DNA of 33,176 nt, taken from contig JALFRH010000232.1 of the NCBI GenBank assembly GCA_022785155.1, positions 1-33,176 on the forward strand, given 5' to 3'. Of the stretch, positions 1,833-8,607 are shown in pieces. A model generated the notes under the pieces. It was not told the origin of the DNA. It did not search any database and saw nothing but the letters and a program-made list of their open reading frames with translations. Both the position numbers and the translations under genes were made by a program. The first letter of the stretch is position 1. The number at the start of each line of letters is the position of its first letter. The stretch is from Spirochaetales bacterium. GTDB lineage: Bacteria > Spirochaetota > Spirochaetia > Sphaerochaetales > Sphaerochaetaceae.

Positions 1833-3293
1833 TCACGGTTTTCTCATACACCTATAAACTATGTCACCTCCGCTGATTGACTTGGTAATGGTTCCTTCCA
1901 TTGTCATACGGTCTATTGCCAACCTAATCTTTCTTGTAATTCCTTTGTAGCCAAGGGCTCTTGATATTTCTGTAATAGTCATTTCTTTATTATGCAAAAC
2001 ATTACAAATCTTCATTTCAAATTCATTGTTTTTATTCTTTTGGGGAAGGAAAGATCCATGAACAGGAATAATCACGGATAGATACTTTCTGTCGCTATCC
2101 ATATCGATTCTGAATCTGTCGCTGCCATTATCCTCCAGTGCCTTTAACGCTGTGGGGAATCCTGTGTTTCTCCCTTCTATAAGATGAAGTTCCTTAAGAA
2201 AGTCACCTATCCTTCTGTTTCTGTATATTCTGGCTCTGAAATCATATTCCTTGATTTTGCTATCAGTAATACTTCTGTCGAATCCAGGAAAACTTGTTAT
2301 CTCCATACATTCTTTAGTGATTCTTACGGTAATAGGTTCCTGAACCTGATATGACCTGTGATAGACAGCATTTGAAAGTATTTCTTCAACAGCCTTGAAA
2401 GGATAATTGAAAACCCTCATTGCTTCAGCTTTATCATCAAGCTTGAACACTTTCTCAGATATGACATAACTTCGAATGTACTCCAGTGCCATTCTCAGCT
2501 GATGCTGTATCGGCCCTCTGAATACCTTTTCTGTCATACCTTCCCCTGTGGAATCTGGGATATCTACTATCTCAATTCTTGCATTTCGGAAATATGTGTC
2601 GATTTTGTTGGAGAACATCAGAAGCCCTACATTTCTTGGTTTTAGGTATTCATTGCTTCCAGCTACCAGCTGCAGATCTCTAGCAACTGAAAGACTGTCT
2701 CTGGATAAGGAAAGCTCATAAAGATCGCTTCCAATTTCCTTAAGGTGATCCTGCATCAGACTTATACTCAAATCCGATACGTCTGCTGCGAGGTTCTCCC
2801 TATCATCAAAAGGAATATCTGATGAAACATAGAACAATTCCTTCTCTTCGTTTGAATCAGCAATTACAGTACTAGAGAATTTCCTTATATAATAATGCTT
2901 TGTACTCTGATTACCTGTTACTTCCCTAGGAGCTTTGTAGGGTCTGCCAAATCCACCTGATACCCATATCACGATGACCCACTTATCCTGGAATAATATA
3001 GGCTCAACAACAGGCTGGTAGAGAGGTTCAATGAAATGACAATGATTATGGAGTTTCTTTAGAATATCATCAATTCTACTCTTTTCTATTCCTTTGACCG
3101 GAAATACTGGGCAGCCATCTTTTTCTTCCACTCCGACGATAATATACCCGCCTCCCATATTATCGATGTCATTGGCAAAAGCGCAGATTGTCCTAATTAT
3201 TTCACTGGGATTATAGTCAGCCTTATACTCAATCCTTGATGACTCAATTATATTGCTGTTAAGTAAATCGTTGATGTTTATCGGAATACCCAT
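1833..3293 (-). CDS. AlbA_2 (Schlafen-type) ATP-binding, DNA-binding regulator
   Basis: This 486-aa protein has three parts. Residues about 15-60 carry an AlbA_2 signature: ESSRIEYKADYNPSEIIRT, an AFAND segment and GGGYIIVGVEE. The middle carries an ATPase-like motif (AVEEILSNAVYHRSY), as in HATPase_c_4. The C-terminus has a winged-helix segment (MTITEISRALGYKGITRKI). This is the architecture of COG2865-type proteins, annotated as putative transcriptional regulators or as parts of defence and toxin-antitoxin-like loci; no substrate is known. The ORF track begins 28 codons earlier inside the 54-bp repeat. ATG 3293, preceded by GAGG about 5 nt upstream, is the likely start. The palindromic repeat 51 bp upstream is a natural candidate for an autoregulatory operator, but that is inference. 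Confidence 0.8.
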   Translation of the reverse strand: MGIPININDLLNSNIIESSRIEYKADYNPSEIIRTICAFANDIDNMGGGYIIVGVEEKDGCPVFPVKGIEKSRIDDILKKLHNHCHFIEPLYQPVVEPILFQDKWVIVIWVSGGFGRPYKAPREVTGNQSTKHYYIRKFSSTVIADSNEEKELFYVSSDIPFDDRENLAADVSDLSISLMQDHLKEIGSDLYELSLSRDSLSVARDLQLVAGSNEYLKPRNVGLLMFSNKIDTYFRNARIEIVDIPDSTGEGMTEKVFRGPIQHQLRMALEYIRSYVISEKVFKLDDKAEAMRVFNYPFKAVEEILSNAVYHRSYQVQEPITVRITKECMEITSFPGFDRSITDSKIKEYDFRARIYRNRRIGDFLKELHLIEGRNTGFPTALKALEDNGSDRFRIDMDSDRKYLSVIIPVHGSFLPQKNKNNEFEMKICNVLHNKEMTITEISRALGYKGITRKIRLAIDRMTMEGTITKSISGGDIVYRCMRKP

Positions 3294-3337
3294 TTCTACC
3301 TCATATAGATGATTGTATGGTATTAACCTATAATTGT

Positions 3338-3400
3338 CGATAACTAGACGATTGTTTTGTCGAGTACTCGACAACATTTGTCGAGTCTGTCGAGTCTACT
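3338..3400. repeat. Palindromic/tandem repeat element, copy B
   Basis: The core 3344-3397 is identical over 54 bp to copy A (760-813), including the 18-bp palindrome and two direct TGTCGAGTCT units. It lacks the third unit of copy A and then diverges, with a shared AGTCAATCA-like tail. It ends about 50 bp upstream of the AlbA_2-family start codon, almost the same placement as copy A before its gene. Confidence 0.85.
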
Positions 3401-4829: not shown

Positions 4830-4860
4830 TTTCGCCTGGTGACTAGTTTGGTGAGATGAG

Positions 4861-4892
4861 GAGCTCCTTCTTGAGTGGGGGCTCTTTTTTTA
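4861..4892 (+). terminator. Terminator after rpmB, or attenuator before the thr operon
   Basis: GAGCTCC-TTCTTGAGT-GGGGCTC, with one G-U pair, forms a 7-bp stem followed by eight T. The next gene starts only 25 bp after the T run, leaving no room for a separate promoter downstream of it. Confidence 0.75.
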
Positions 4893-4917: not shown

Positions 4918-7335
4918 GTGAAAAGTATTAGGGTACACGCTCTCGAAGGATCAATGGTTTCAACCTGGAAAGGAATAGAGAAGCTATACAATATCCACAA
5001 AAAAGAAAAAGAAGACGTACAGGTTTATGTTCTTCCTCCAACAAGAGATCCCGATCTCAGTTTCTACAGACTATTGGATGCAGCGGAAAACAAGAATGAC
5101 GGCATTTGGAATATGCTCGATCAGAAGAGGACGGCTTGGCTTGAGCTGGTGGCTGCTACATTGAAAGAAGAAGATAAAAAGGCAGTCTCCGAGTATATTA
5201 CCCAAAGCTTTGAATCCATCAAAGATATCCTCAAGGCCGTCTGGATTCTTGAAGATAAGTCTGGAGCCGCTTCAGACCACCTGGAGACCATGACATCCCT
5301 TTTCCTTGAAAAGATTGTTTCATCTTATTTTTTGCAGAGAGGAGAGAGCGTAGAATCCAAAGAATTGAATAAACTTCTCTCCGATCATAATCCTTCCTTC
5401 CAGAGCAGGGCTGTCTTCATTTCCGGTGAGCTTGTCTACTGTGTAGATGACAGGGATGCAGCTGGAAAAGAGAGAACGGATGAAGGCTGGGGTGAGTATT
5501 CCTCCGCCCTTGTTGCAGCCCAACTTTCAGCCCCCCTTACATATTGGAACCAAAGGAGCCTGTTGTATTCAGCCAGCAAGAAGGACGTTCCCAATGCCCA
5601 CCTGATTAAAGATATGACATATGCGGAGGCCACGGAGCTTTCATTCTTCGGTGCTCCTGTAGTCCATCCCCATTCCTTTATTCCAGCAGAAGAGGCAGGA
5701 GTACCATTATCCCTCAGATATTGGGGAGACCCGGAAGAAGAGGGGACTTTGGTTACAAGGGAAGGAAAGAAATCCAGTAAAGATGGAGTCAAGGCTTTCT
5801 CTGTAGTAAAGAACATATCGTTAATCAACGTGGAAGGCTCAGGTATGTCTGGTGTTCCTGGTGTATCTTCCCGTCTCTTCGGCGCACTTAGAAACGAAGG
5901 CATAAGCGTAATCTTCATATCCCAGGCATCAAGCGAATACTCAATCTGTTTCGCTGTTCCTACACCTCAGGCTCAGAATGCGAAAAACACTCTTGAGAAA
6001 GAGTTCAAGAGGGAAATATCCCTCCACCAGATTTCTTCCATCGATATGGAAGATAATCTCTCCATTCTTGCTGTTGTCGGTGAATCCATGCCAGGACGCA
6101 TCGGTGTCGCAGGTAAGCTCTTCTCATCCCTTGCCAGAGCTGGCGTAAACGTCAGAGCCATTGCCCAGGGTTCAAGTGAAAGAAACATCAGCGCCGTCAT
6201 CTCCAGCCGTGATGCCGTAAAAGCCGAAAGAGCACTCCATACAGTATTCTTCATGTCCCAGCAGACACTTTCCTTAGGTTTGTTCGGCCCAGGAAACATC
6301 GGAGGAACCTTGCTTGATCAGATCGGAAGGGAAAGGGAGAGGTTAAAGAGGGAGTTTGACCTTGATATTAGAGTGAGAGGAATTGCAACAAGCAAGAAAA
6401 TGCTGATCAGTGAAGAAGGCATAGATCTCAGCTCTTGGAGGGAACAGATGGATCAGTATGCCATCCCTTACAATGAAGAGATATTCCTTTCTCACATCAA
6501 GGCTTCATATTATCCTCATTGGGTTCTTGTGGATGCTACTGCAAGCAAAGAAAGGGCAATGCAGTATAAATCCTTTATTGAGGAAGGTTTCCATGTAATA
6601 ACGCCAAACAAGAAGGCATCCAGCGGCCCATACGACTACTATGAAAGCCTCTACGAAACTTCCCTTAGGACAGGAAAGAAGTTCCTGTATGAAACGACAG
6701 TCGGTGCAGGACTTCCTATTATAACAACCCTCAAGGACCTGAGGGAGACAGGCGATATCATAGAGAAGGTTGAGGGTATGGTTTCAGGTACTCTTGCCTG
6801 GCTCTTCAGTAACTATGACGGAACAGTTCCTTTCTCACATCTTGTAAAGAAGGCAAAGGATATGGGCTTTACAGAGCCTGATCCTAGAGACGACCTCTCA
6901 GGAATGGACGTAGCGAGAAAGACTGTCATTCTTGCAAGAGAGTTGGGATATAAGGCGGAAGTTGAAGACCTCGATATCAGAAACCTTGTTCCTGCTGATC
7001 TCAGAGATGTATCCAAGGAAGAGTTCCTGGAAAGAATGAGTGAAATGGATGACGAGATGCTTTCTCTTTATAAAGAAGCGGAAAAGAAGGGCATGAAACT
7101 AAGATACGTCGGTACGGTAGACGGAGGAAAGTGCTCTGTTTCCCTTTCATCCTTCCCCCTCGATCATCCTTTCAGTCAGGCTAAGGGAACTGATAATGTC
7201 ATCGAGTTTACTACAGCCAGATATCATAACCAGCCTTTGGTTGTCCAAGGACCTGGAGCAGGACCAGAGGTCACGGCAGCTGGAATATTTGCAGATATAT
7301 TGAGGTTAAGTGCATACCTCGGAAGCAGAATCTAG
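4918..7335 (+). CDS. thrA: ThrA-like fusion: degenerate aspartokinase, ACT domains and homoserine dehydrogenase
   Basis: This 805-aa protein is collinear with E. coli ThrA. Residues about 1-290 match the aspartokinase domain by position (KDMTYAEATELSFFGAPVVHP) but lack its active-site motifs. K-F-G-G-T-S is A-L-E-G-S-M, G-R-N-G-S-D is D-E-G-W-G-E, and T-D-V-D-G-V-Y-T is N-Q-R-S-L-L-Y-S. ACT domains follow (SQASSEYSICF, AIAQGSSERNISAV). From about residue 452 the homoserine dehydrogenase domain is intact: GPGNIGG, VITPNKKASS, TVGAGLP, and the active-site stretch DPRDDLSGMDVARK. So NAD(P)-dependent reduction of aspartate semialdehyde to homoserine is expected, but aspartate phosphorylation is not. 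The GTG start at 4918 has AAGGGA 8 nt upstream. It is followed after 9 bp by thrC. Confidence 0.9.
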   Translation: MKSIRVHALEGSMVSTWKGIEKLYNIHKKEKEDVQVYVLPPTRDPDLSFYRLLDAAENKNDGIWNMLDQKRTAWLELVAATLKEEDKKAVSEYITQSFESIKDILKAVWILEDKSGAASDHLETMTSLFLEKIVSSYFLQRGESVESKELNKLLSDHNPSFQSRAVFISGELVYCVDDRDAAGKERTDEGWGEYSSALVAAQLSAPLTYWNQRSLLYSASKKDVPNAHLIKDMTYAEATELSFFGAPVVHPHSFIPAEEAGVPLSLRYWGDPEEEGTLVTREGKKSSKDGVKAFSVVKNISLINVEGSGMSGVPGVSSRLFGALRNEGISVIFISQASSEYSICFAVPTPQAQNAKNTLEKEFKREISLHQISSIDMEDNLSILAVVGESMPGRIGVAGKLFSSLARAGVNVRAIAQGSSERNISAVISSRDAVKAERALHTVFFMSQQTLSLGLFGPGNIGGTLLDQIGRERERLKREFDLDIRVRGIATSKKMLISEEGIDLSSWREQMDQYAIPYNEEIFLSHIKASYYPHWVLVDATASKERAMQYKSFIEEGFHVITPNKKASSGPYDYYESLYETSLRTGKKFLYETTVGAGLPIITTLKDLRETGDIIEKVEGMVSGTLAWLFSNYDGTVPFSHLVKKAKDMGFTEPDPRDDLSGMDVARKTVILARELGYKAEVEDLDIRNLVPADLRDVSKEEFLERMSEMDDEMLSLYKEAEKKGMKLRYVGTVDGGKCSVSLSSFPLDHPFSQAKGTDNVIEFTTARYHNQPLVVQGPGAGPEVTAAGIFADILRLSAYLGSRI

Positions 7336-7344
7336 GAGGAAAAT

Positions 7345-8607
7345 ATGGTCAGATTCGTTTCAACAAGAGATAAGAATGGCCCATCTTGCAGCGTCAGCGA
7401 AGCCCTGTTGAAGGGATTGGCACCGGATGGAGGCTTGTATGTTCCGTCAACTATGCCTCAGCGTCCAAGTGATTTCACACTTAAAGAAGGTGTATCCTAC
7501 GCAATGTATCAGGCGATAAAACCATTTTTCGAAGGTGATGAACTGGAAGGCGATCTTCTCCAGATTTGCCAGGATGCATTTAATTTCCCGGTTCCTATGA
7601 AGAACCTTGGAGGCAACAAGGTGCTTTTGGAATTGATCTACGGCCCTACAAGCGCCTTTAAGGACTTCGGTGCCAGATTCCTTGCTTTCTCCATGGAGAA
7701 GCTTCTTGAGAGAAGAGGAGAAGAAAAGACAATCCTTGTCGCCACAAGCGGCGATACAGGCGGAGCTGTCGCAGCTGCTTTCTGGAGAAGAAAGAACCTG
7801 AAGGCAAAAGTGCTCTTCCCAAAGGGAAGGGTGGCTGAAAGACAGAGGGCCCAGCTTACTACCTGGGGCGATAACATCGAGAGCTATGAAGTGGATGGAA
7901 ACTTCGATGACTGTCAGAAAATGGTCAAGGAAGCTTTCATGGACAAATCCATAACAGAAGGCCTCAGTTCTTCAAACTCCATCAATATCGGTCGTCTGTT
8001 GCCTCAGATGGCTTACTATGCTTATGCCAGTGAGATGTATTATGCCCTTTATGGAGAGAAACCAGTAATCATCGTGCCATCTGGAAATGTAGGAAATGTT
8101 ACAGGCTGTTTCTGGGCCAAGGCCATGGGTTATCCGATTGAGAGAATTGTAATGGCCACAAATGCCAACAGAACGATTCCTGATTACCTGGAAAGCGGAG
8201 AGTATAAGCCAAGGGCAAGTGTAAAGACTTTGGCCAATGCCATGGATGTCGGAGCACCTTCGAATATGGAGAGACTCTTTGATATGTTCCCTACCTTCGA
8301 AGACTTCTCTGCTTCTGTAAGTGCCATGAGCGTCAGCGACAGCGAAATACAGAGAACCATAAAGGAAGTATATGATGAAGACAAATATATCATTTGTCCT
8401 CATACAGCTTGTGGAGAAAGGGTGAGAAGGGATTATTTCAGCACTTCACCGACTATGGTCGTCTCTACAGCCCATCCTGCCAAGTTCGATACCATTGTGG
8501 AACCTTTGATCGGTACTACTGTACCAATTCCAAAGAACCTTTGGGAAATAATCCAGAAGCCAAGTTATGCCAAAGAGATAGGAAGAAATTACAAGGAATT
8601 GTTCTGA
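7345..8607 (+). CDS. thrC: Threonine synthase
   Basis: This 420-aa PLP enzyme converts O-phosphohomoserine to threonine. The PLP lysine is in PTSAFKDFG (about residue 106), the substrate/PLP loop is ATSGDTGGAVAAAF, and the phosphate-binding turn is SGNVGN. The N-terminus RFVSTRDKNGPSCSVSEALLKG and the GLAPDGGLYVP block are typical of the E. coli-type family. The start is well fixed: AGGAGG overlaps the thrA stop codon and lies 6 nt before ATG. thrB (homoserine kinase) is not in the window. The last 19 bp overlap the 3' end of the convergent MATE gene. Confidence 0.96.
   Translation: MVRFVSTRDKNGPSCSVSEALLKGLAPDGGLYVPSTMPQRPSDFTLKEGVSYAMYQAIKPFFEGDELEGDLLQICQDAFNFPVPMKNLGGNKVLLELIYGPTSAFKDFGARFLAFSMEKLLERRGEEKTILVATSGDTGGAVAAAFWRRKNLKAKVLFPKGRVAERQRAQLTTWGDNIESYEVDGNFDDCQKMVKEAFMDKSITEGLSSSNSINIGRLLPQMAYYAYASEMYYALYGEKPVIIVPSGNVGNVTGCFWAKAMGYPIERIVMATNANRTIPDYLESGEYKPRASVKTLANAMDVGAPSNMERLFDMFPTFEDFSASVSAMSVSDSEIQRTIKEVYDEDKYIICPHTACGERVRRDYFSTSPTMVVSTAHPAKFDTIVEPLIGTTVPIPKNLWEIIQKPSYAKEIGRNYKELF

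Follow-up and report, generated by a model that had tools for sequence, protein, structure and literature searches.

It is commonly presumed that fused enzymes retain both activities. A stretch of 33,176 nucleotides from a Spirochaetales bacterium (contig JALFRH010000232.1), here referred to as the window, harbours a ThrA-type gene for an aspartokinase-homoserine dehydrogenase (AK-HSD) fusion in which the kinase residues have been replaced, and this raises the question what the kinase half still contributes to the protein. The initial annotation proposed that it had been kept only as a regulatory or structural module. In the reading that we consider likely, the protein is a threonine-regulated HSD with a dead AK domain kept for structure and signal transmission. 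Added to the earlier reading are the reach of this type of fusion, its ancestry and the signs of new constraint on its N-lobe.

The gene, encoding HSD fused to a degenerate AK, is located at 4918..7335 on the + strand (stop codon included) and encodes 805 aa from a GTG start. Its reading frame had been called clean, and indeed no internal stops were found in the 805 codons. The domains follow each other in a single chain as in ThrA: a degenerate AK N-lobe (residues 1-190, 4918..5487, +), a degenerate AK C-lobe (residues 191-290, 5488..5787, +), two ACT segments (residues 291-448, 5788..6261, +; Pfam ACT_9 twice) and HSD (residues 449-805, 6262..7332, +; PF03447 and PF00742). Pfam detected the HSD at 457-795 and both ACT segments, and of the amino acid kinase only a fragment (191-264). 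The protein scores 809 bits with NCBIfam NF006959, the equivalog for bifunctional AK-HSD I (cut-off 726), with the best stretch starting at residue 192. The fused gene is followed after 9 bp by the start of thrC, encoding threonine synthase (7345..8607, +; TIGR00260, 253.8 bits, cut-off 167.1), and the two genes are probably co-transcribed. The gene order nth - rpmB - fused gene - thrC is common to most relatives with long enough contigs. The stretch that separates rpmB from the fused gene contains a terminator-like hairpin with a T-run (4858-4887), 30 bp ahead of the GTG, that may act as the rpmB terminator or as an attenuator of the thr genes; terminator-like sites are no more frequent in the window than in shuffled sequences. 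Elsewhere in the window, the 18-bp palindrome TTGTCGAGTACTCGACAA occurs in two exact copies (773-790 and 3357-3374), each as part of a longer leader that is itself repeated. The copies lie where two ORFs of the - strand (395-793 and 1833-3377) have their 5' ends. By chance no copies are expected, and the palindrome is absent from the other loci fetched; the copies are possibly operators of one regulator.

The first reading held that the hallmarks of AK catalysis had been replaced, and the alignments agree. KFGGTS has become ALEGSM (residues 8-13), GRNGSD has become DEGWGE (188-193) and TDVDGVYTxDPR has become NQRSLLYSxSKK (211-222), while KDMTYAEATELSFFGA, described as a retained fold-supporting part, is present at residues 231-246. 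AK positions are numbered here as in E. coli LysC. From the LysC and M. jannaschii AK structures, K8, D222 and K257 are taken by us to be phosphate or nucleotide residues, E119 and R198 to be substrate residues and D202 to be involved in catalysis. All six are replaced in the window protein (K8 by A8, E119 by S127, R198 by E189, D202 by E193, D222 by Q212 and K257 by P247), and the T45 equivalent is lost as well. The protein was compared with E. coli ThrA, MetL and LysC, with 59 fused enzymes that keep the motifs (the intact enzymes) and with six stand-alone AKs of the same genus. The same catalytic columns are almost invariant in the intact enzymes (K257 in 53/59), and the six stand-alone AKs keep them except at the K257 position. 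Since S or T is found there in these stand-alone AKs, K257 is the weakest marker of the putative kinase loss.

The search for relatives sharing these losses was successful. All 65 spirochaete copies collected first have a degenerate kinase site, and the replacements recur: K8 has changed to A in 55 of the 65, R198 to E in 54, D202 to E in 64, T221 to N in 59 and K257 to P in 54. Twenty extra copies from other genera, fetched as a test, have all lost the scored kinase residues. Because the same losses are seen in 65 relatives and 20 further copies, chance is excluded. The joint loss of catalytic residues indicates that the AK half is almost certainly without kinase activity.

It had also been claimed that the protein aligns with ThrA along its full length. 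For single-sequence and HMM comparison this did not hold, as the alignment starts only at about residue 192; residues 1-160 could be recognized as an AK N-lobe, albeit only via profiles or the predicted fold. Similarly, phmmer alignments of the fused protein with solved aspartokinases begin at residue 188 or later. With hhalign, the N-lobe was matched to intact N-lobes with an E-value of 7e-15 at 13% identity, and the C-lobe to active enzymes with an E-value of 5e-30. The predicted structure of the fused protein (mean pLDDT 86.7) keeps the AK fold, the former glycine-rich loop (~171-190) being the poorly predicted region. This N-lobe E-value, together with the model's AK fold, ruled out a swap of the N-lobe for an unrelated domain. 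The best PDB matches of residues 1-445 are to the threonine-sensitive aspartokinase of M. jannaschii (3c1n, 3c1m), and a fold search gave 37% identity of the HSD half to yeast HSD 1ebf. A resemblance of the model to the inhibited T-state was set aside, single models being too weak for this: the window protein matched the threonine-/lysine-bound AKs (3c1n 0.82, 2j0x 0.79) better than the substrate-bound ones (3c1m 0.71, 2j0w 0.70), and in a single-model intact control the values were 0.84 for 2j0w vs 0.77 for 2j0x, with 3c1n (0.90) and 3c1m (0.86-0.88) hardly separated.

Degenerate fusions were found in ~70 of the 81 genomes of the order, where their matches to the AK profile never start before position 180, and in five genomes of other families (G037, G038, G051, G056 and G059). 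G039, from another family of the class, carries an intact fusion (L018). In a tree built by a quick method from the ACT and HSD columns only, the kinase columns being left out, 55 degenerate copies form one clade with an SH-aLRT of 100, with long branches among the outgroups. Where members of this clade are named they are spirochaetes, Sphaerochaeta sp. M55B162 among them, from which the surveyed order is probably Sphaerochaetales. Copies outside the order show in-between motif states: L077 has VDGVMSADP and has lost KFGG, L076 keeps KF with GG changed to DD, and L073 and L074 keep TAD or TADP. The history with the best support is a single loss of the kinase with step-wise erosion afterwards. 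One of the genomes surveyed, G008, encodes on contig C49 an ACT-HSD protein sequence (L045) identical to L066 of G028; G008 has a second, different copy as well (L046), and this bin is likely contaminated.

Such erosion could mean that the kinase domain is functionless baggage in slow decay, kept only as the upstream fusion partner of a needed enzyme. The graded series from L077 (VDGVMSADP) via L074 (TTADP) to the genus of the window, where both motifs are lost, fits this explanation, as does the N-lobe being the least conserved part of the protein (0.52 vs 0.78 for HSD). However, the selection data argue against it. Among five close relatives, dN/dS was ~0.06 for the N-lobe, 0.04 for the C-lobe, 0.02 for ACT and 0.02 for HSD, ratios that are rough with dS > 1 and near saturation. 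In the three genomes in which both could be compared, the N-lobe of the fusion showed a dN/dS of 0.050, near that of the N-lobe of the active stand-alone AK (0.069) and far below 1. Moreover, a full-length domain that is predicted to fold is retained almost everywhere, and new invariant residues persist in several families. Slow decay is thus very unlikely. The statement that this is not decay stands, with open frames in dozens of species, the low N-lobe ratio and the newly invariant residues, and a pseudogene was ruled out by the open frame, the low dN/dS and the recurrence in dozens of genomes. The N-lobe and C-lobe combine a predicted amino acid kinase fold, loss of the catalytic residues and conservation across species under purifying selection, the features of a pseudoenzyme of this superfamily.

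The ACT segments and the dehydrogenase were said to be intact, and this was confirmed: in the 65 copies both ACT motifs are invariant and the HSD motif columns are at or near 100%. The window protein has the threonine-site residues in both ACT segments (Q336 in ISQASSE, Q417 in IAQGSSE, S330 and G418), as well as the nucleotide-binding and catalytic motifs of HSD. S330 and G418 are the equivalents of S345 and G433 of ThrA, and these positions, like ISQASSE and IAQGSSE, show little or no variation among the 65 copies. Threonine resistance of E. coli ThrA resulted from changes at 345 and 433, and MetL, described as being without ACT domains, is not inhibited by threonine (PMC12925634). The invariance of the motifs and of the S345/G433 equivalents makes it plausible that the dead kinase half is kept for threonine feedback on HSD, which we infer to be the best reading. 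Among the observations that count against this reading, ThrA of V. natriegens keeps 345 and 433 but shows only slight inhibition by threonine (PMC12925634), and a shortened fusion in the 1.2 Mb genome G120 (L206, 715 residues) is without the second ACT motif.

A fusion with a dead kinase requires aspartyl phosphate from elsewhere, and a second, stand-alone AK had been predicted. It was found in 66 of the ~70 fusion-bearing genomes of the order, a count made by hand in which a stand-alone AK is a match from the profile start and three of the 66 are incomplete; several of the genomes in this survey are single-contig. In all five genomes from other families the degenerate fusion is likewise accompanied by a stand-alone AK, and in G039, with its intact fusion, a second AK match is absent. 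In the window's own assembly (2.17 Mb, 259 contigs, 94% complete) no second AK was found, the remaining amino acid kinases being ProB, carbamate kinase and UMP kinase. Absence of any other AK would speak against the first reading as a whole, and the draft taken alone would have been such a case; this is offset by the end of contig C242. In G013, a close relative, ~750 bp separate the AK frame from a particular neighbour gene that precedes it, and C242 of the window's genome (7786 bp) ends 259 bp past its match to that neighbour gene. Since the contig ends before the expected site, an assembly gap is the likely reason for the missing AK. An Asd/ArgC-type semialdehyde dehydrogenase is present in the genome (PF02774 match).

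ThrB was not found in the window's genome and is rare in the survey of the order, and a TIGR02535-type homoserine kinase was looked for and not found. The gap leaves a homoserine kinase to be explained, and this brings up the idea that the fused protein still phosphorylates aspartate or another substrate, e.g. homoserine, via replacement residues, among which the near-invariant E at D202 (64/65) could be one. However, phosphate, nucleotide and substrate residues are lost jointly, the region of the glycine-rich loop is poorly predicted, a stand-alone AK is nearly always present and ThrH accounts for the ThrB gap. ThrH (TIGR02137, phosphoserine phosphatase/homoserine phosphotransferase) was found in 28 of 31 genomes of the order and in all five relatives tested, so that a route from HSD via ThrH to ThrC is available to the group; homoserine phosphorylation in the order probably runs through ThrH. 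Repurposing as a homoserine kinase was largely rejected on the ThrH count together with the loss of the ATP-site residues, and any remaining kinase activity of the fused protein appears extremely improbable. ThrH was not found in the window's draft assembly, and a draft without stand-alone AK and without ThrH counts against our main reading. In another 1.2 Mb genome the ThrH match (G121:C2:68745-69344) contains one in-frame TAG.

The N-lobe provides evidence for constraint of a new kind. Among 41 representative N-lobes, with a mean identity of 34% and a minimum of 14%, exactly three positions are invariant: W64 (codon 5107..5109, +), F98 (5209..5211, +) and W109 (5242..5244, +). W64 is W in 63/63 copies having the position vs 0/59 intact enzymes, F98 is F in 63/63 vs 8/59 and W109 is W in 63/63 vs 2/59. 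The set was found again in 18 of 20 copies left out of its discovery, of which the G112 copy agrees with L112 in every motif shown, so that both probably come from one genome and the copy is not independent; others may overlap with named records too. One exception, in G085 (L204), is a full-length degenerate fusion with M-I-D instead of W-F-W and with the ACT motifs kept; the other is the shortened G120 fusion mentioned above, a possible next step of erosion. Compared with intact enzymes, conservation has gone up in block 61-70 (0.69 vs 0.39) and block 101-110 (0.78 vs 0.59) and down at the former active-site segments. That W64/F98/W109 were gained points to more than a dead kinase being passively kept.

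It could be speculated from this signature that the former AK domain has acquired a new role, as a regulatory domain for a new ligand or by docking onto and regulating another protein of the pathway, such as the stand-alone AK, ThrC or ThrH. With trans control of the stand-alone AK, flux into the pathway as well as flux at the branch point would be set by one complex. The three residues being the sole invariant N-lobe positions in such divergent copies and absent or uncommon in intact enzymes, and the shift of conservation from the active-site segments to the helices 61-70 and 101-110, are in favour of such a role. On the other hand, a like signature would be expected if aromatic residues had repacked a helical hairpin once the active site was lost, and G085 retains its ACT motifs and full-length gene without any of the three residues. 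A new role is regarded as rather unlikely, although less so than slow decay.

In the preferred reading, a threonine-regulated HSD, the enzyme would descend from an AK-HSD fusion of which the kinase died and the domain was kept. Aspartyl phosphate would be supplied by the separate, intact stand-alone AK, and the fused protein would be left with the HSD step alone, the conversion of aspartate semialdehyde to homoserine. Still folded and still joined to the two ACT segments, the dead AK domain would contribute structurally to the oligomer and would serve as the platform by which ACT-bound threonine inhibits HSD. With the tasks divided in this way, the entry step, which lysine shares, would no longer be tied to the fused protein, and threonine control would sit at the HSD branch point.

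Thus one of two fused activities appears to have been lost, probably once and long ago, and the dead half has been kept and re-specified in most of a spirochaete order and several further families, a natural experiment in which feedback would be separated from catalysis. It also implies a systematic annotation error, as NF006959 scores the window protein above its cut-off and metabolic reconstructions would credit this protein with aspartokinase. In the open-licence literature nothing on point was found on an inactive AK within an AK-HSD fusion; an earlier mention is possible.

The window protein resembles E. coli ThrA (NF006959) in AK - two ACT - HSD order, length, ACT and HSD motifs and the adjoining thrC, and differs from it in the lost kinase residues, the W64/F98/W109 signature and the partner, an intact stand-alone AK. 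With E. coli MetL (AK-HSD II) it shares an AK-HSD fusion that lacks one original property, but as a mirror image: in MetL the kinase motifs persist and the glutamine motifs of ACT are gone, while the window protein shows the reverse. The threonine-sensitive aspartokinase of M. jannaschii (3c1n, 3c1m) has the closest solved fold, but is an active kinase that is not fused to HSD. Functionally, the window protein would be like the HSD of B. subtilis (PMC9728202), an HSD with a regulatory domain without kinase activity of its own. The B. subtilis enzyme, however, has a single C-terminal ACT and no kinase-derived domain, whereas the window protein carries an N-terminal dead kinase and two ACT segments.
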